Source of the DNA: a virus | IMG/VR virus record: IMGVR_UViG_3300028045_000012 | Span: 1 to 64,000 of that record | DNA: 64,000 nucleotides | Reading direction: 5' to 3' (one strand) | In this document: positions 19,998-30,800 of the stretch, piece after piece | Layout of the letters: every line of letters begins with the position of its first letter | Numbering within the stretch: the first letter of the stretch is position 1 | Program-made: the position numbers and the translations under genes | The notes under the pieces: generated by a model | Told to the model about the DNA's origin: nothing | The model's input: the letters and a program-made list of their open reading frames with translations, nothing else | Database searches by the model: none

Positions 19998-21950
19998 TTA
20001 TAAATTATCAATAAATTGTTTACCAGACGGTACACCACCATCCCTAAATGTACCATTTAAATGTGAAATAATCATTTTTTGTATCATTGGTTGTAATTTA
20101 TTCATATCAACATTTCCTAATACTCCATTATCTGATTTAACTTGAATAGTACCATTTATTTTAATATCACCAAATTCCATTTTATTTGGTATATTTATCC
20201 CAGGAATATTTGTTGTTTTATCTATTAATTTATCTAATGGTCCACCCTTTTTTGCCCCAATAATATCGTCCTGATTGTTGAAATTTACTTTAGTCCCATC
20301 ATTCCTTACTATAAAATCGTTTGACTTTTTTATTTTTAGGTCTTCACCTGCATCAGTACGTGTAGTACCTTCTTGATTAATTGTATTAGTATTTATTGAA
20401 TCAGTAAAAAGGTCCTCAAATTTAATATCCGAAAGACCACTATTTATAATGTTATCTAGGTTTGAAAGTTTTTCCTCAAATATCTTACCCGTTGAAATAC
20501 CTAAATTTTCTGCCAGTTTCGTATATTTAGTTTTTAAATCTCCAAGTACAGTATTTTCTAATAACCCACCAATTGATGAAACAACCTTTGCAACACCATC
20601 TATTGATGTGTTAATTGTTGGTCTACTTATATCCTCTATAAGTTCATATAAATTATTATTAGCAGTTAAACCCGCTTTTATAGATTCTTCAAGATTACTA
20701 AGAATTTCATTAGTTGTCATAGAATTTCTCGCAATGTCCATTATAGCATCATCAGCATCTTTTGGTGCTGCTAAAATTTCAGCAGCATCCTCCATCCCAA
20801 CATCTTCTAATTCTAAAGGTGGACCTTTTGCCATATCAATAACCCAATTACCCTCTTCATTCAATCTCGCTAAACTAGCAATACCTTCTCTCATATCTTC
20901 ATCAATGATATTACTACTAACTTTCATTTTAATATCTTTTATTTTTGAAGATTGTCGAGCCATATCAATTAATGAATCCACATTTACACCTAATTGGTCA
21001 CCAGCAGCCTTTAGTTGCATTTTTACTTCAGCAGGGAACTCATACTCACCTGTTTCAGAGTTAAACTGAATCATATTTTCAGTCATATCTTGAAGTTTTT
21101 TTGCAAGTTCTTCTGGTTTATTTCTTGCTAAATACATTGTTTCGAAAGGGTCCCCAAATGCTTTTGCGATATCACCACCTAATAATTGTAAATTTGCTGC
21201 GGCTTCAATTGCGGCTTCAGGTTGATAAAATTTATCTGACATGCCTAACATTTCAGAAACATCAATCCTCATTTTAACGGCTAATTTAGCCATTTCTGTC
21301 ATACCTTTTACTCCATTAGAAAAAGACATTCTGGACATCTTACCAAAATTATTAGACAATGATTTTGCAACTTTACTTGCATTTAAACCTAATTTTTGAC
21401 TTTCTATTGTTAAATTTTCTAAAAATTTAAAGGATTTTTCGGAATTTATACCCATTAATTCCATTCTCTCAGTCATTTCAGTTACATTTTCAGTTCCAAG
21501 ACCTAAAGATTTACTAATTAAACCTATATTTTTCACTTCATTTGGGTTCATAATTCTAGCCCTACCTGAAGAATCAGAAAATTCAGACATAATAGTTTTC
21601 ACTTCACTTGCCTCAAAACCAAATTTAGCCAATTCTGAATATGCAGAATTAAAAGATTTAGTAAATTGATGACTTCTTTTTGTTGATAACCCTATATTTA
21701 TAGCGGTTTTTTTAGACTCTAATGCTAATTTTTCTGCGTATTTATATTGTTCATTAATGTTTAAGGCAAATTCCGCAGATTTTATTACGACATTACCTAA
21801 TGTTTTAGATAAGTCACCTAATAAGTTATCACTTTCACCTATACCACTTGATGCCTTATCCATATTTTTAGATAAGGAATCAATTTTTTTAGATAAAGAT
21901 TCAATTCTAATTTCTAATTTCTCAATTCTTTCCTCTGGTGTAGGTGCCAT
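19998..21950 (-). CDS. Tape-measure-like tail protein
   Basis: A 650-residue, largely alpha-helical protein. It begins with a coiled coil (residues about 5-35, heptads in RIEKLEIRIESLSKKIDSL) and contains EAAIEAAANLQLLGGDIAKAF at about 230-250, a pattern common in phage tape-measure proteins. Gly-rich amphipathic helices follow, then a C-terminal domain with LDKLIDKTTNIPGINIPNKM. Its place just after the gp26-like chaperone-type gene and a small coiled-coil protein is the usual spot for a tape measure. It would span the tail tube and set its length. 650 residues is short for a tape measure; at about 1.5 angstrom per residue the tail would be roughly 100 nm. Confidence 0.6.
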   Translation of the reverse strand: MAPTPEERIEKLEIRIESLSKKIDSLSKNMDKASSGIGESDNLLGDLSKTLGNVVIKSAEFALNINEQYKYAEKLALESKKTAINIGLSTKRSHQFTKSFNSAYSELAKFGFEASEVKTIMSEFSDSSGRARIMNPNEVKNIGLISKSLGLGTENVTEMTERMELMGINSEKSFKFLENLTIESQKLGLNASKVAKSLSNNFGKMSRMSFSNGVKGMTEMAKLAVKMRIDVSEMLGMSDKFYQPEAAIEAAANLQLLGGDIAKAFGDPFETMYLARNKPEELAKKLQDMTENMIQFNSETGEYEFPAEVKMQLKAAGDQLGVNVDSLIDMARQSSKIKDIKMKVSSNIIDEDMREGIASLARLNEEGNWVIDMAKGPPLELEDVGMEDAAEILAAPKDADDAIMDIARNSMTTNEILSNLEESIKAGLTANNNLYELIEDISRPTINTSIDGVAKVVSSIGGLLENTVLGDLKTKYTKLAENLGISTGKIFEEKLSNLDNIINSGLSDIKFEDLFTDSINTNTINQEGTTRTDAGEDLKIKKSNDFIVRNDGTKVNFNNQDDIIGAKKGGPLDKLIDKTTNIPGINIPNKMEFGDIKINGTIQVKSDNGVLGNVDMNKLQPMIQKMIISHLNGTFRDGGVPSGKQFIDNL

Positions 21951-22097: not shown

Positions 22098-22601
22098 TTA
22101 CATGATTTTTTTTATTTCAAATTTTATGTCAAAATCGCCACTAGATCTACTCATTATACCACTTTTCACATCGAAATTTTTATTATAAAATAATTCTACA
22201 GTACCTTTTTGTGATTCATAAGTGTTTATTGTTCTATAATAAAGTTTTAAACCGATATTGTCATCCCATTCGTCAATGTTTAGAATCATATAATTGTTCG
22301 TCAATTTTAAAATGTTAAAATAAGTTTTACCTTTTAATGTTAAATTAATTTTTTCACTATATGCACGTACCGATAATTTTTTTTCATCAATAAAATCTAT
22401 TAGTATTTCATCATATTTTAGTTGGACATCATCACTATTGATATCTATTAAATTATTTAGTTTTAATTCTAAATCAGTTATTTTTACATCTAAATCATCA
22501 ATTTCTAAATCTATATTACCCTTCCCTTCAGATATAATTTGTAGGTGTTTAACGTATAATAAAATTTCTTTAACAATTATATTATGTTGTGTTATATTCA
22601 T
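22098..22601 (-). CDS. Hypothetical tail-region protein
   Basis: A 167-residue acidic protein beginning MNITQHNIIVKEILLYVKHL, with a helical, coiled-coil-like N-terminal half (IDLEIDDLDVKITDLELKLNNL) and a beta-rich C-terminal half. It sits between the gp26-like chaperone pair and the tape measure. A tail-assembly or baseplate function is likely from position only. A late-type motif lies 10 bases upstream. Confidence 0.7.
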   Translation of the reverse strand: MNITQHNIIVKEILLYVKHLQIISEGKGNIDLEIDDLDVKITDLELKLNNLIDINSDDVQLKYDEILIDFIDEKKLSVRAYSEKINLTLKGKTYFNILKLTNNYMILNIDEWDDNIGLKLYYRTINTYESQKGTVELFYNKNFDVKSGIMSRSSGDFDIKFEIKKIM

Positions 22602-22640: not shown

Positions 22641-22832
22641 TTATTCTTTTGGTAATAACGTTCTAATAAAATATTTACGTATATATGTTGGCATTATTAA
22701 AATATCAGAATAAGTTATCCCATTTCTTGTTAAAAATAAGATTTCTTTTAATAAATATTGTTGATGATTAGATGTCAGGCCAAAATATATTTTTATTGAT
22801 TCTAAGAAAGGTTTCAACCGACTCACCCCCAA
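22641..22832 (-). CDS. Overlapping frame downstream of gp26-like gene; probable frameshift extension
   Basis: This 63-codon frame overlaps the end of the gp26-like gene by 65 bases and lies in the +1 (= -2) frame. Its only possible starts are a TTG at 22832 and a GTG at 22826, both inside the upstream gene. The protein (LKEILFLTRNGITYSDILIM, then MPTYIRKYFIRTLLPKE) has the Tyr-Ser-Asp-x-x-x-Met-Pro pattern common in small C-terminal pieces of tail-assembly chaperones. I think it is most likely made as a C-terminal extension of the 257-residue protein by ribosomal frameshifting at 22822-22833. Independent initiation is the alternative. Confidence 0.5.
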   Translation of the reverse strand: MGVSRLKPFLESIKIYFGLTSNHQQYLLKEILFLTRNGITYSDILIMPTYIRKYFIRTLLPKE

Positions 22833-23541
22833 GAGTCGTAGCCGTTGTTTTAAAATTAAGACCTGGTTCTATATCTACGATATACTTATTAAGTGAACGG
22901 ATATCTAATATTGGTAAACTTTTTAACGTATTAGATATTTTAATTTTATCTGTTTCACCTTCAATTTCCATTATAGATCTCTCTAATTTTAATGTTGTTT
23001 TAGTTGAAATTTCATTTTTATTACGTTCCATTAATTGTTTATCTAAAATATCTATTTCGGATTCATCTTTACCGTTTAATAGTCTAAATTTTATATTTCT
23101 TTTAGATTTTGGTAATAAGAAATCAAATAAATTATTTTCATCTGGTTTTATTGTTAATTTTTTTTGTTCTAAAGTAGATAAATCAACTTCTCCTTCTACA
23201 ATTTTTCTACTTATTGGGTCTATTACTGGTTGCATATATTTCTCACCAAATGCGGTAATCCTTAAAAATATTATTATTGCCATTCTATCACCTTCTAACA
23301 AAAGATTATGATCAAAACCTAAATCTTTTACTTTTCTTTCTAATAATACATCTAATAGTTTACCACTATTTAATATATTAGGTGATGTTAAAATATTTTC
23401 ATCATACGCAGTTAAAAATTCAACTTTAACTTTTGATTTTTTATTAGGGTATAATAAACCTTGTGATGGTAATTCTAATATATCATAAGGTACTCTATAT
23501 TCTTCTGGTACATAATTCGGGTCTATAAAACTTTTTTCCAT
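22768..23541 (-). CDS. Baseplate hub assembly protein / tail chaperone, T4 gp26-like
   Basis: A 257-residue protein with LPSQGLLYPNKKSKVKVEFL, then LTAYDENILTSPNIL, then a segment ending IIFLRITAFGEKY. This order (L-P-S-x-G-L-L-Y, V-x-x-x-L-T-A-x-D-E-x-I-L-T-S) is that of the T4 gp26-like baseplate family, whose members act in hub assembly and resemble tail-assembly chaperones. T4 gp26 is 208 aa. It precedes the tape-measure region, as chaperones do. Near the 3' end the sequence CTTGGGGGTGAG overlaps the 63-codon frame and could be a frameshift site. Confidence 0.7.
   Translation of the reverse strand: MEKSFIDPNYVPEEYRVPYDILELPSQGLLYPNKKSKVKVEFLTAYDENILTSPNILNSGKLLDVLLERKVKDLGFDHNLLLEGDRMAIIIFLRITAFGEKYMQPVIDPISRKIVEGEVDLSTLEQKKLTIKPDENNLFDFLLPKSKRNIKFRLLNGKDESEIDILDKQLMERNKNEISTKTTLKLERSIMEIEGETDKIKISNTLKSLPILDIRSLNKYIVDIEPGLNFKTTATTLGGESVETFLRINKNIFWPDI
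22822..22833 (-). other. Possible programmed -2 (or +1) frameshift site
   Basis: On the minus strand CTTGGGGGTGAG, read in the gp26-like frame as CTT GGG GGT GAG. A -2 slip of the GGT-decoding tRNA onto the overlapping GGG (22829-22827) puts the next codon at GTG, in frame with the 63-codon downstream ORF. Phage Mu tail-chaperone genes use a -2 shift at GGGGGCGA, one base different from GGGGGTGA here. The product would be about 300 residues. Confidence 0.45.
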
Positions 23542-23579: not shown

Positions 23580-25652
23580 TTATGTAGAAATGGGGATTAA
23601 ACTATGTGAAATAGTAATCATTGGGTTATCAATCACTTCTACAGGATCTATACTGTATGCCATTTCATCATCTTTTACTTGAGTAGGATCCCCTTGTTCT
23701 TTTTTATTATCAAAGTTTTGTTGGTGTTTATTATCATTTTTTGTACAATGTATTTCCACAAGTTCTTTGTATTTTTCCGTATCTCTTTTAAATTTATTTA
23801 TTTTTTCATTAGTAAATGGGTTTTCCAAAGGAGTCTGATTAAAGGCCATATCCATTATTTTGAGTAACCTTTTTGATTTATTTTCTATAAAAAATTCATT
23901 TAAAGTATCAATATCAGTTAATAAGGTTGTATATTTGTCATCACATAATATCTTCATATTAGGGTTTTCCTTTTTCAACTCTGTTATAATAGTATTAAAT
24001 TCTTTTTTTTCTACAAGGGCACTAAACTTATCTATGTTACCTTTAATGTCATTAACCAGTGTATTACAAATACATTTTTCTGGTTTTTTGTCTTTACAAT
24101 TTATTTTTTTACAAGCCAAGTCTAATCCAAAGACACCACCTTCCCATACACCTGATAAGAATTTCTGAATAATGGATAGATAATCCTCTATCCTTAAAAA
24201 AACCTTAATAGGGTTTATTAAGGGGAATTTTTTTTCGTTATATAACTCATCTTCTTTGTATTGAATTATATTTGCGAATATATAACTATATATAAGAGCC
24301 TCCCTTCCAAGTTTTGTACCCTCTCCAAGAAGTCTCAACCCACCTTCTAATGAGTTAAGTTCTACACCATTTCTTAATTTTTTCCAAAGTTCTCTATTTA
24401 AAAACAAAGAATGGTACTTACCACCATCCGGTATCTTGTCTAGCAACCCTTTAGGATTTCCAATAGATGTTGACAATACTTTTTTTAACATTTTAAGGGG
24501 TATATTGATTAATACATAAGAAGTCTTAGGGAATAAACTTCTAGGTACTGTAGAAATATATTTAAGTATACCTATTTCATTTTCATTTGTTACTTTACCA
24601 ACAACTTTACTATATTCTTTCGGAAGATTTTTTGTTTCTTCAAGGTCAAATTTTAATTTTCCTGTTGTTTCATCTATTTTTACAACCCATTTTTCTATAC
24701 TATCTACTAGTTTTATTTTTTTACCCTCTTTAACTAATAAAATACCACCATTATTAATTAAGTTATCATATATTGTATCATAATTAACACCCTTACTTGT
24801 TTTAGTAAAATCTTTATTTAAGTTTGTGAATAAGGGTTTTATTTTTTTTGCGATTTCTTCTTTATTAGCCTTTATATAAAAAGGTTCACTTGTTTTTACA
24901 ATAAAATTATTAATTAATTTAGGGGTAACCTTTAATCCTTCCTTATTAAGTGTTTTATGTTTAAAATGGTGTTTAAAAATATTTTCAATTTCTTTTTTTT
25001 GTTTTTCAATAAATTCGGGTCTTAAACCAGAGGTATCATCAAGTTTATTGTAATGTTTAATTAAATCTTCTGTGTATGCATTTTTTTTAAAATTATCAGA
25101 TATTAAATTAAATAAAGGTGGATTACCTTTATATAATGTTATATATAATTTATAACCATCAGGACTAAGTTTCTTTATTTCATCAAAATCTATATCGTAA
25201 CTATCAACTTTTCTTTTAACAAATTTTCTTGGTTGTTCAAGTATAATTTCCATTAATGATTGAAACTCTTCAATTTGTTTTTTAGTAGCCTGTTTCCATA
25301 ACCGATTTCCATCTGTTTTTAATGCATTCACAAAATCTTGACTTTTTAAAACTGTTAACAAATCTTCTGGATTATCAATTTTATATTTGTCTATTCCTAG
25401 TTTTTTTGTTGCCTTTCTATTTTTAAAAAAATTACTTAATTTAGTAGTTTTAGTTTTACCAAGTGCCTTAATAAACTTCTTAATAGGTTGTTCCATTAAT
25501 AAGTTATTGGGTAAAAATTGTGATAAAAATTCCCATTCTAAAACTAAATTATTTTTTTCTTCGTTTTTATCTACTAAATTACCATAAAGTCTTTCATTAT
25601 TAAATAATGATTTCATTCTATTAATTTCTTCGTTTATGTTTTTATATTTCAT
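23580..25652 (-). CDS. Leader-bearing protein of unknown function (690 aa)
   Basis: Starts MKYKNINEEINRMKSLFNNE, with the same pattern as the 359-residue peptidoglycan-binding protein (LNEELNRMKSLF) including the RLYGNL that follows in both. The rest is unrecognised: a long Lys/Glu/Leu-rich soluble protein with helices, a short Cys-rich stretch near residues 507-525 (ACKKINCKDKKPEKCICN) that might bind a metal, and an acidic C-terminus. The leader suggests packaging in the phage head. It is followed by the gp26-like gene 38 bases later. Confidence 0.75.
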   Translation of the reverse strand: MKYKNINEEINRMKSLFNNERLYGNLVDKNEEKNNLVLEWEFLSQFLPNNLLMEQPIKKFIKALGKTKTTKLSNFFKNRKATKKLGIDKYKIDNPEDLLTVLKSQDFVNALKTDGNRLWKQATKKQIEEFQSLMEIILEQPRKFVKRKVDSYDIDFDEIKKLSPDGYKLYITLYKGNPPLFNLISDNFKKNAYTEDLIKHYNKLDDTSGLRPEFIEKQKKEIENIFKHHFKHKTLNKEGLKVTPKLINNFIVKTSEPFYIKANKEEIAKKIKPLFTNLNKDFTKTSKGVNYDTIYDNLINNGGILLVKEGKKIKLVDSIEKWVVKIDETTGKLKFDLEETKNLPKEYSKVVGKVTNENEIGILKYISTVPRSLFPKTSYVLINIPLKMLKKVLSTSIGNPKGLLDKIPDGGKYHSLFLNRELWKKLRNGVELNSLEGGLRLLGEGTKLGREALIYSYIFANIIQYKEDELYNEKKFPLINPIKVFLRIEDYLSIIQKFLSGVWEGGVFGLDLACKKINCKDKKPEKCICNTLVNDIKGNIDKFSALVEKKEFNTIITELKKENPNMKILCDDKYTTLLTDIDTLNEFFIENKSKRLLKIMDMAFNQTPLENPFTNEKINKFKRDTEKYKELVEIHCTKNDNKHQQNFDNKKEQGDPTQVKDDEMAYSIDPVEVIDNPMITISHSLIPIST

Positions 25653-29147: not shown

Positions 29148-29636
29148 TTAAAATACGTTTATCGCCCTATCAAACCTAAGTGTCGCAGTAATATCCGCCA
29201 AATCTGAAGAACTATAATCTAAACCACCAAAATCAACGTCATTAAGTTGTGTACTTTGTAATATCCATTTTTGAACAACAACACCTGTTGGGTCTAACAT
29301 TTCTAACTCAACGTCTTTTTTATACCCTGCGGCATACCCTTGTCTCCCAGTAACACTTTCTGAATGTAATCTAACCCATTCCATTAAGGCCTGAGTCGCA
29401 GAAGGTCCAATTGGATCTCTAAATGTCACAGAAATAGGGTCCCACCTAAATCTACCTATTACATAAGTTTCAGTATTTAAAAATGGTATTGTAACTTCAT
29501 CACTTGAATATTTTGGTCTACTTGTTGTCGATACCCACCATTCTTGTATACCTAACTCATCTGGGAATCTTAAGATAAACCTATTCTTTCTTAACGGTTC
29601 ATAAGGAACAGGCATTCGCATTAATAAATCTGCCAT
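29148..29636 (-). CDS. gp19: Tail tube protein (T4 gp19-like)
   Basis: The 162-residue protein matches T4 gp19 (163 aa) in size and in several blocks: MPVPYEPLRKNRFILRFP near the start, YVIGRFRWDPISVTFRDPIG, ALMEWVRLHSE, the YAAGYKKDVELEMLDPTG loop and a C-terminal LADITATLRFDRA. gp19 stacks as hexameric rings to make the inner tube of the contractile tail. In T4 the sheath (18) and tube (19) genes are adjacent; here the sheath lies 3.6 kb upstream in the same direction with leader-protein genes between. Confidence 0.9.
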   Translation of the reverse strand: MADLLMRMPVPYEPLRKNRFILRFPDELGIQEWWVSTTSRPKYSSDEVTIPFLNTETYVIGRFRWDPISVTFRDPIGPSATQALMEWVRLHSESVTGRQGYAAGYKKDVELEMLDPTGVVVQKWILQSTQLNDVDFGGLDYSSSDLADITATLRFDRAINVF

Positions 29637-29826: not shown

Positions 29827-30330
29827 TTAATAAGGTGGTACATCCACTAAGAATTGTTTAACATCAGATGATATTTTTTCTACATCATCAAAATTAATCT
29901 TAACACTCATACTAGTGCCGAAATCATCAGGAATAACTTCATAACCTTTTTTATTCCACCATTCTTTAACTTCTTCAAAATAAACTTTCCTTTCTTCTTT
30001 GTCATCGTAACTTGAAAAATCATATGATATTTCCTCAACATCATTTGGGTTATATGCCCTTATAAACATCATATAAGTAGATATATGGGAGAGATTATCA
30101 TCCTGGTACATAGTTTGTGCCAGTCCCCAATTTAATGATTGGTTAGGTATATCACTATCAATATCTTTAAAATCTTGTATATAAGGTTTATTTATATTTT
30201 TTAACCTATTATATAGTTTTTTCCATCTAGGATTGTTTTTTCCTTTTTCTTCATCTTTAGATTCACCTAATATTCTCATATTACTTTCTAAAATTAAATT
30301 TCTTTTTGTTTCCCAAGGTCTTCTTATCAT
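29827..30330 (-). CDS. Leader-bearing protein, paralogous leader pair member A
   Basis: A 167-residue protein starting MIRRPWETKRNLILESNMRI, nearly identical over 26 residues to the start of the next upstream gene, after which the two differ. The body is charged and aromatic, with KLYNRLKNINKPYIQDF and an acidic C-terminal half. The leader carries I-L-E-S. The upstream 90 bases are duplicated at 30724-30813. The body is unlike its neighbour's, so the leader looks modular. Confidence 0.75.
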   Translation of the reverse strand: MIRRPWETKRNLILESNMRILGESKDEEKGKNNPRWKKLYNRLKNINKPYIQDFKDIDSDIPNQSLNWGLAQTMYQDDNLSHISTYMMFIRAYNPNDVEEISYDFSSYDDKEERKVYFEEVKEWWNKKGYEVIPDDFGTSMSVKINFDDVEKISSDVKQFLVDVPPY

Positions 30331-30343
30331 TTTTTTTATTTTT
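30254..30343 (-). repeat. Duplicated leader cassette, copy 1
   Basis: About 90 bases nearly identical to 30724-30813. The repeat covers the first ~26 codons and the short untranslated stretch before the ATG of the gene at 29827-30330. Confidence 0.85.
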
Positions 30344-30800
30344 CACTTTCTTTACATTTACTCACATCAATTTCAGGATCAACTTTAAAATATTTAGTGA
30401 CACCCTCTTCTTCATTTACTAATTCAATTTCTTGAATATTTTGAAAACTATCATCTATTTCATCAACAATTCTTTTAATCCAATCTTCTATTTTTGGATA
30501 AAAAGTATTATCGTCTTTTATTTCTTTGTTTAAATCGTGCATAACTTTTCTTTCGTATGCCTTTGCCGCCGCAGGGTCATCATCATCCCAAGTATCCTGG
30601 TATGGACAGAAAAATTTTGCGTATTCTGATTCTTCATCTGCATAAAAAACTAAATTATCAGATTCTTTCCACCACTCTTCTATAGTTTTACAAAAATTAA
30701 CGGCAAGGTCGAAATCACTTTGTTCTTTAGATTCACCTAATATTCTCTTATTACTTTCTAAAATTAAATTTCTTTTTGTTTCCCAAGGCCTTCTTATCAT
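30336..30800 (-). CDS. Leader-bearing protein, paralogous leader pair member B
   Basis: A 154-residue protein starting MIRRPWETKRNLILESNKRI; the leader is shared with the previous entry but the body is different. The body is acidic (DEESEYAKFF, DTWDDDDPAAAKAYERKV), with helices and no recognised domain. It is followed 5 bases later by member A, so they are cotranscribed. The leader includes the I-L-E-S motif. Function unknown. Confidence 0.75.
   Translation of the reverse strand: MIRRPWETKRNLILESNKRILGESKEQSDFDLAVNFCKTIEEWWKESDNLVFYADEESEYAKFFCPYQDTWDDDDPAAAKAYERKVMHDLNKEIKDDNTFYPKIEDWIKRIVDEIDDSFQNIQEIELVNEEEGVTKYFKVDPEIDVSKCKESEK

Follow-up and report, generated by a model that had tools for sequence, protein, structure and literature searches.

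Results

A frameshift candidate among the tail genes

The window analyzed here is the 64,000-nucleotide stretch at positions 1 to 64,000 of the IMG/VR virus record IMGVR_UViG_3300028045_000012, a record of 65,557 bases; the G+C content of the window is 28.4%. On its minus strand, an ATG-initiated ORF of 257 aa (22768..23541) encodes a gp26-like protein of the T4_baseplate/phrog_150 type, a putative tail-assembly chaperone, and ends at a TAA stop (22768..22770). A second ORF of 63 codons, in the +1 (equivalently −2) frame of the same strand, overlaps the end of this gene and runs from 22832 to 22641. Translation computed with a +1 shift at the sequence TTTCTT gives a fusion of 299 aa, to which the +1 frame contributes a gp51-C-terminus-like extension of 54 residues (22641..22805, minus strand), from the TTA at 22805 to the stop at 22643-22641.

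The gene sits between that of a tail tube protein (gp19-like; 29148..29636, minus strand; phrog_4542, E 8.4e-25) and a tape-measure-like gene of 650 aa (19998..21950, minus strand). A tape-measure-like gene had been said to follow the frameshift candidate, and its position agrees with this, but the family match is weak (phrog_10613, E=0.013) and a gene of 167 aa (22098..22601, minus strand) lies between the two. In Flavobacterium phage immuto, the homologue is located upstream of an annotated tape measure gene.

A Shine-Dalgarno (SD) core within 20 nt of the start was found in none of the window's 47 large ORFs (about 2 expected by shuffling). The sequence 5' of these starts is A/T-rich. Relatives of the locus occur in Flavobacteriales, Winogradskyella and Sphingobacteriales MAGs and in Flavobacterium phage immuto; a Prochlorococcus assembly and a Wolfebacteria MAG contain one relative each. 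Judged by the SD-less starts and the taxonomy of the relatives, the host probably belongs to the Bacteroidota, an assignment that the single relatives in Prochlorococcus and Wolfebacteria keep at the level of probability. No tRNA genes were found in the window.

Elsewhere in the window, several minus-strand ORFs that otherwise look unrelated (upstream ends at 25652, 29034, 27813, 26334 and 32090) have similar N-termini, with segments such as NEEINRMKSLFxxERLYGNL, ITESQYNRLFLEQ or KRILREE, possibly a common targeting or processing signal. Two adjacent genes, 29827-30330 and 30336-30800, have nearly identical N-termini (MIRRPWETKRNLILESN.RILGESK) and diverge afterwards.

The +1 extension is conserved and lacks its own start

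Two scans of viral contigs for relatives yielded 6 and 58 loci. After the removal of sequences identical at the site, 38 distinct TTTCTT sites were retained, including that of the window; the relatives carrying them are 46-80% identical, and, counted from where TTT starts, their alignment is gapless over the preceding 36 nt and the following 15 nt. In every relative that covers the gene end, the +1-frame ORF spans the 0-frame stop and continues for 42-68 codons beyond it. Downstream of the 0-frame stop, the +1 frame is free of stops in 38/38, with the other frames averaging 4.7 and 5.7 stops per sequence. The −1 frame was rejected as the target, since in the +1-type relatives it closes 5-44 nt past the 0-frame stop. 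Among 103 pairs of 60-97% identity, the extension shows a pS of 0.60 and a pN of 0.22, an uncorrected ratio of 0.37, and it contains a conserved core, ...L.KEI.FLV..GFSYSDIM.MPT..R.... On these comparisons the extension is coding and under purifying selection.

The first-pass annotation had described the 63-codon frame as lacking a good start, and this is borne out. Before the conserved core, the window offers only TTG at 22832, GTG at 22826 and TTG at 22817, all inside the upstream gene. No start codon for the extension common to the 38 sequences was found, and in most of these relatives the interval from the upstream +1-frame stop to the conserved part contains no ATG, GTG or TTG; the ATGs that are conserved across the clade are located about 38 codons past the slip, inside the conserved core. 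The same arrangement recurs across the 38 distinct sequences, from many metagenomes and also on MAG/SAG contigs, and no close relative has a second frame started by ATG with an SD or a gene in which the two frames are already fused. The 63-codon frame is accordingly read, as in the first-pass annotation, as a frameshift extension of the gp26-like gene: the comparison describes an overlapping downstream ORF that is conserved in relatives and reachable only through a frameshift.

The probable slip site is TTTCTT

A programmed shift had been proposed for this gene at GGGGGTGA (22823..22830, minus strand). The target frame, +1/−2, is retained, but the evidence moves the slip site to TTT_CTT (UUU_CUU in the mRNA; 22809-22804), 14-21 nt 3' of the G-run. 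TTTCTT is invariant in 38/38 and is the sole six-base invariant run in the region. Just 5' of TTT, the +1 frame contains a stop in 24/38 sequences, which starts at −8 in 23 of them and at −11 in one. From TTTCTT to a second T-rich stretch ahead of the 0-frame stop, there are 0/228 +1-frame stops, where the rate seen upstream in this frame (10.9%) would predict 24.8. If the 33 distinct 18-mers were independent, the probability would be about 1e-10, an overstatement of the significance given that the sequences are related.

The conservation of CTT runs against codon usage, as CTT accounts for 9.5% of Leu codons in the 38-site genes and 13.2% in the window, and TTA for 71-76%. Nor does coding of the extension require the C of CTT, because this C is the base skipped in the +1 reading. 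At the position of the P-site UUU, TTTC is found in 38/38, and the base 5' of TTT is C in 34/38. The codon 3' of CTT is variable (AGA, AGG, AAC, ACA, GTC, AAT, AGC), which favors a slip on UUU_C with CUU in the A site over a Ty1-like slip on CUU_AGG. We infer that the slipping codon is UUU_C and not CUU_A; either slip would produce the identical peptide ...ETFLESIK... and the same fusion. Some Leu codons are rarer than the A-site CUU, and codon usage alone would not explain a pause in the A site. We regard +1, in preference to −2, as the best reading of the shift.

A covarying hairpin precedes the probable slip site

The G-run of GGG GGT GAG (22830-22822), within the upstream gene, forms the loop of a hairpin with a stem of 6-7 bp and a loop of 8 nt, located 8-9 nt upstream of TTT. 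In the window, the stem has 6 bp, CGACTC (22838-22833) with GAGTCG (22824-22819), and encloses the loop TTGGGGGT (22832-22825); GGGGGTGA is SD-like and lies in the loop and the first two bases of the 3' arm. The spacing between hairpin and slip site is constant and gapless in 38/38.

The structure is identified by covariation. Across the 38 sequences the hairpin scores 0.380, compared with 0.150±0.017 in shuffles, of which 0/500 reach the score, and at most 0.101 in controls with slid partners. Pairing is found in 91.4% of cells, and six of the seven pairs show double changes (31 cells). RNAalifold recovers the same stem when no structure is given. The second stem position is C-G in the window and G-C in most relatives, and coupled changes span codons: CGGATGC/GCATCCG in one relative (L018) corresponds to CGGACTC/GAGTCCG in another (L009), a change of ACT..GAG to ATG..GCA (Thr/Glu to Met/Ala) that preserves pairing. 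A covariance model (CM) of the element scores the window at 64.4 bits (E 5e-15), the window being among the sequences from which the model was built; it picks up the window and close relatives, with no convincing match among the deeper ones. Folded as a single sequence, the window is no better than shuffles (z −0.21), and because the folding energy is unremarkable, the case for a structure is drawn from covariation. On that evidence the upstream hairpin is conserved as a structure, juxtaposed to the slip site.

We favor the hairpin as the +1 stimulator and keep SD pairing as a rival or accessory. The reason is that, on Escherichia coli 70S ribosomes, +1 shifts can be promoted by an upstream hairpin in place of an internal SD duplex (PMC6321510); in that system the hairpin-driven shift takes place at a CUUUGA site, only without RF2, and with no sense codon in the A site. 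According to the rival, which we regard as unlikely but worth retaining, the G-rich loop stimulates the shift by pairing with the anti-SD in a prfB-like manner, and the hairpin may act as a gate, for example one to which only bS21-lacking ribosomes would respond. With the 16S tail sequence taken from general knowledge, the duplex between loop region and anti-SD averages −12.2 kcal/mol over the 38 sequences, against −2.0 for the other 14-mers of the same genes; the loop region pairs more strongly than 99.2% of these (0.8% are as strong), and some loops are a perfect GGAGGUGA. In prfB, the spacing from SD to P site is 3 nt. Here the G-run ends about 14-16 nt upstream of the P-site codon, far from the prfB spacing. 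SDs placed 8-11 nt upstream are established stimulators of −1 shifts (PMC6321510). Ribosomes of Flavobacterium that lack bS21 do respond to strong SDs, but Bacteroidia ribosomes normally do not recognize SDs, their 16S tail being held by bS21, bS18 and bS6 (PMC9976891). None of the window's 47 large ORFs uses an SD. Part of the G-richness of the loop is imposed by the Gly-Gly codons, and covariation of the arms would not be needed for pairing of the loop alone.

Other sites and other routes to the extension

At the second T-rich stretch, just ahead of the 0-frame stop (in the window, ATA TTT TGG), a slip could also take place, as probably happens in deeper members of the family. A deeper group at 41-46% identity (L055, L056, L058, L060, L061 and L063) has the extension and lacks the TTTCTT site, and the deeper +1 relatives as a whole (L055-L063, L067, L069, L167-L169, immuto and Microcystis phage Mel-JY01) have neither the hairpin nor TTTCTT at this position; for the deep clade RNAalifold gives a different, poorly covarying structure and no shared hairpin. 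For these relatives a slip close to the 0-frame stop is probable, at TTT TTT TGG or TTT CTT TGG: the +1 frame of L169 does not open until 20 nt before the stop, and at this place immuto reads AGC TTT CTT TGG. Since the deeper relatives keep the +1 extension without the element, the combination of hairpin and TTTCTT is specific to the window's clade, and the slip site appears to have moved within the family. For the window's own clade, use of the second stretch is improbable, as the +1 frame is stop-free already upstream of it, from TTTCTT on, and it is at the first site that the hairpin lies and that the codons are invariant in spite of codon usage.

Less probable still is a Mu-like −2 slip, in which tRNA-Gly would slip on GGG GGT into the −2/+1 frame. 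The G-run is one base off the −2 site of phage Mu, which we take to have the sequence that the first-pass annotation quotes. Conservation of the run holds in part: the first Gly codon is GGG in 29/38, against 13.6% of Gly codons, but GGA in nine sequences breaks the run. The window's own +1 frame is already open 59 nt before TTT and has no stop between the G-run and the extension. In the 24 sequences with a +1-frame stop before TTT, which include relatives about 78-80% identical and not the window, the stops all lie 3' of the G-run, and a slip on the run would end in termination before the extension is reached. The G-run was rejected as the slip site on this ground; it also forms a loop flanked by covarying arms. 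We judge the −2 proposal very probably mistaken.

Separate translation of the extension is similarly hard to sustain. Re-initiation could occur at a CTG near the 0-frame stop, or initiation at the TTG or GTG codons inside the upstream gene. This CTG, which lies 31 nt downstream of where TTT begins, occurs in most relatives, but L034, L037, L043, L052 and L057 lack it at that place, and the +1 frame is stop-free 5' of it; the TTG and GTG are absent in most relatives, and no large ORF of the window uses an SD. An independent start was rejected for want of a conserved start codon. Gene decay or a sequencing or assembly error can be put aside almost entirely, being refuted by the conservation of one arrangement in 38 distinct sequences under purifying selection.

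The gene belongs to the gp26/gp51 family

Profile scans of the 257-aa protein against Pfam and PHROG returned 0 families at E≤1, and the relation to known proteins was traced through intermediates and the predicted fold. The named-phage matches of the protein in tblastn include LIS04 (8e-5), GXN1 (1e-5) and immuto (1e-16). The proteins of Listeria phage LIS04 and Streptococcus phage GXN1 are members of PF12322 (T4_baseplate; 5e-24 and 4e-25), and those of immuto and Mel-JY01 match phrog_150 (8e-9 for immuto). The AlphaFold model of the 0-frame protein has a mean pLDDT of 88.4. With this model, Foldseek finds 54 matches in BFVD at E≤0.001, many of them named baseplate hub, the best named match being a "baseplate hub subunit" of Bacillus phage SP-15 (E 8.7e-17, TM 0.79/0.82); sequence and Foldseek searches of the PDB found no solved relative. 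By way of these intermediates and the modeled fold, the window protein is assigned to the T4 gp26/gp51 family (PF12322, phrog_150), whose namesakes are assembly chaperones of the baseplate hub (PMC3004832).

In T4, gp26 (208 aa) is a member of PF12322, as is gp51 (249 aa), which consists of a gp26-like domain (1-201) followed by about 48 C-terminal residues. HHalign connects the +1 fusions to cyanophage-type −1 fusions of gp26 and gp51 (E 9e-12) and these to T4 gp51 (E 8e-16); each of the two alignments spans the C-terminal extension. When the window clade is compared directly with T4 gp51, the match is weak (probability 9-62%), so the link goes via the intermediates.

Other lineages carry −1 arrangements

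In Synechococcus phage S-RIM8 (L081 1471-2369, KX349290), a −1 ORF joins gp26 with a separately annotated gp51 of 45 aa. The 0 frame ends in TTTTTTC, a canonical −1 slippery heptamer (U_UUU_UUC), shortly before the stop in 75/75 distinct related contigs (L081 and L083-L162), and this cyanophage-type −1 site is found at the same junction as the +1 site of the window clade. A −1 arrangement with T_TTT_TTC or T_TTT_TTG is also found in Agrobacterium phage OLIVR6, Aeromonas phage 65.2 and Sinorhizobium phage phiM9 (L079, L080 and L082), where gp51 is missing or annotated as a separate small gene. The 595-kb uncultured phage L070 (LR756511) has, after its gp26-like gene, an extension in the −1 frame that carries the motif NERKYIIHKF, possibly another type of frameshift.

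Discussion

On the comparative evidence the fusion is real, and there is good support for a +1 shift at UUU_CUU together with an upstream hairpin. What the comparison establishes is that the +1 extension is conserved and lacks a start, where the slip window lies, that the hairpin is present, and how the main domain relates to gp26/gp51. We consider it very probable that a programmed +1 frameshift at this site allows one gene to specify two tail-assembly chaperones of 257 aa and 299 aa. In the proposed mechanism, UUU (22809-22807) would enter the P site and the hairpin, 8-9 nt upstream, would refold at the mRNA exit of the ribosome, which it would block or push. In a fraction of ribosomes, tRNA-Phe would exchange its pairing with UUU for one with UUC while CUU waits in the A site; these ribosomes would thereby move +1 and resume in the new frame at TTA, giving ...ETF-LESIKIYFGL... 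up to the stop at 22643. Unshifted ribosomes would terminate at 22768 and release the short form. The short form would be the counterpart of T4 gp26 and the long form that of T4 gp51. From the position of the gene and the analogy with lambda gpG/gpGT, we infer a chaperone role in which the pair would load the tape measure protein and recruit tail-tube subunits.

The distribution of −1 and +1 arrangements suggests that frameshifting is the common state of the family and the T4 duplication the exception. An evenly balanced proposal, which we put forward as such, is that T4-superfamily contractile phages generally frameshift the gp26/gp51 pair, by −1 at U_UUU_UUC in the cyanophage type and by +1 at UUU_CUU with a hairpin in the Bacteroidota type, that the Tevenvirinae are derived in this respect, and that an SD-like hairpin loop replaces the SD stimulator. 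If true, gene duplication would have replaced the frameshift in Tevenvirinae such as T4, and in the Bacteroidota, with their SD-blind ribosomes, an intramolecular hairpin with an SD-like loop would have taken over, perhaps one that is responsive to bS21-lacking ribosomes. Cyanophage and vibriophage gp51 have been reported to lack the first ~200 residues (PMC3037559), a truncation for which a −1 frameshift would account. No paper on gp26/gp51 frameshifting was found in the open-access literature; subscription papers and bioRxiv were outside the scope of the search, so novelty is provisional.

Among known systems, lambda gpG/gpGT (Xu, Hendrix, and Duda 2004; PMC5009743) is similar in that a gene before the tape measure gene has its C terminus extended by frameshifting, with an extension that lacks a start and with a short and a long product. 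Lambda uses a −1 shift, whereas the window gene would use +1 with an upstream hairpin and belongs to the T4 gp26/gp51 family. A 2016 review described tail-chaperone frameshifting as conserved in long-tailed phages "except T4" (PMC5009743). T4 gp26/gp51 share the protein family with the window gene, by transitive homology and fold, and gp51 has the shape of the fusion; in T4, however, the short and long forms come from separate paralogous genes on opposite strands with no frameshift, and in the window from one gene. The −2 shift of phage Mu leads into the same frame; in the window clade, the slip very probably lies elsewhere than on the G-run.

The slip itself is closest to that of influenza A PA-X, UCC_UUU_CGU, in which a P-site UUU_C likewise slips to UUC in a +1 shift and whose authors predicted a class of UUU_C sites (PMC3498833). 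The A-site codon is a rare CGU in PA-X and CUU in the window, where a bacterial ribosome and an upstream hairpin would be involved. Upstream refolding hairpins (PMC6321510, PMC3639245) are likewise juxtaposed to the E site and substitute for an SD duplex on 70S ribosomes. That mechanism has so far been demonstrated with designed constructs, reporters with CUUUGA and without RF2, in contrast to the natural, covarying hairpin and sense A-site codon of the window clade, which, as far as we found, is the first natural phage case in which comparative evidence ties an upstream hairpin to a +1 slip.
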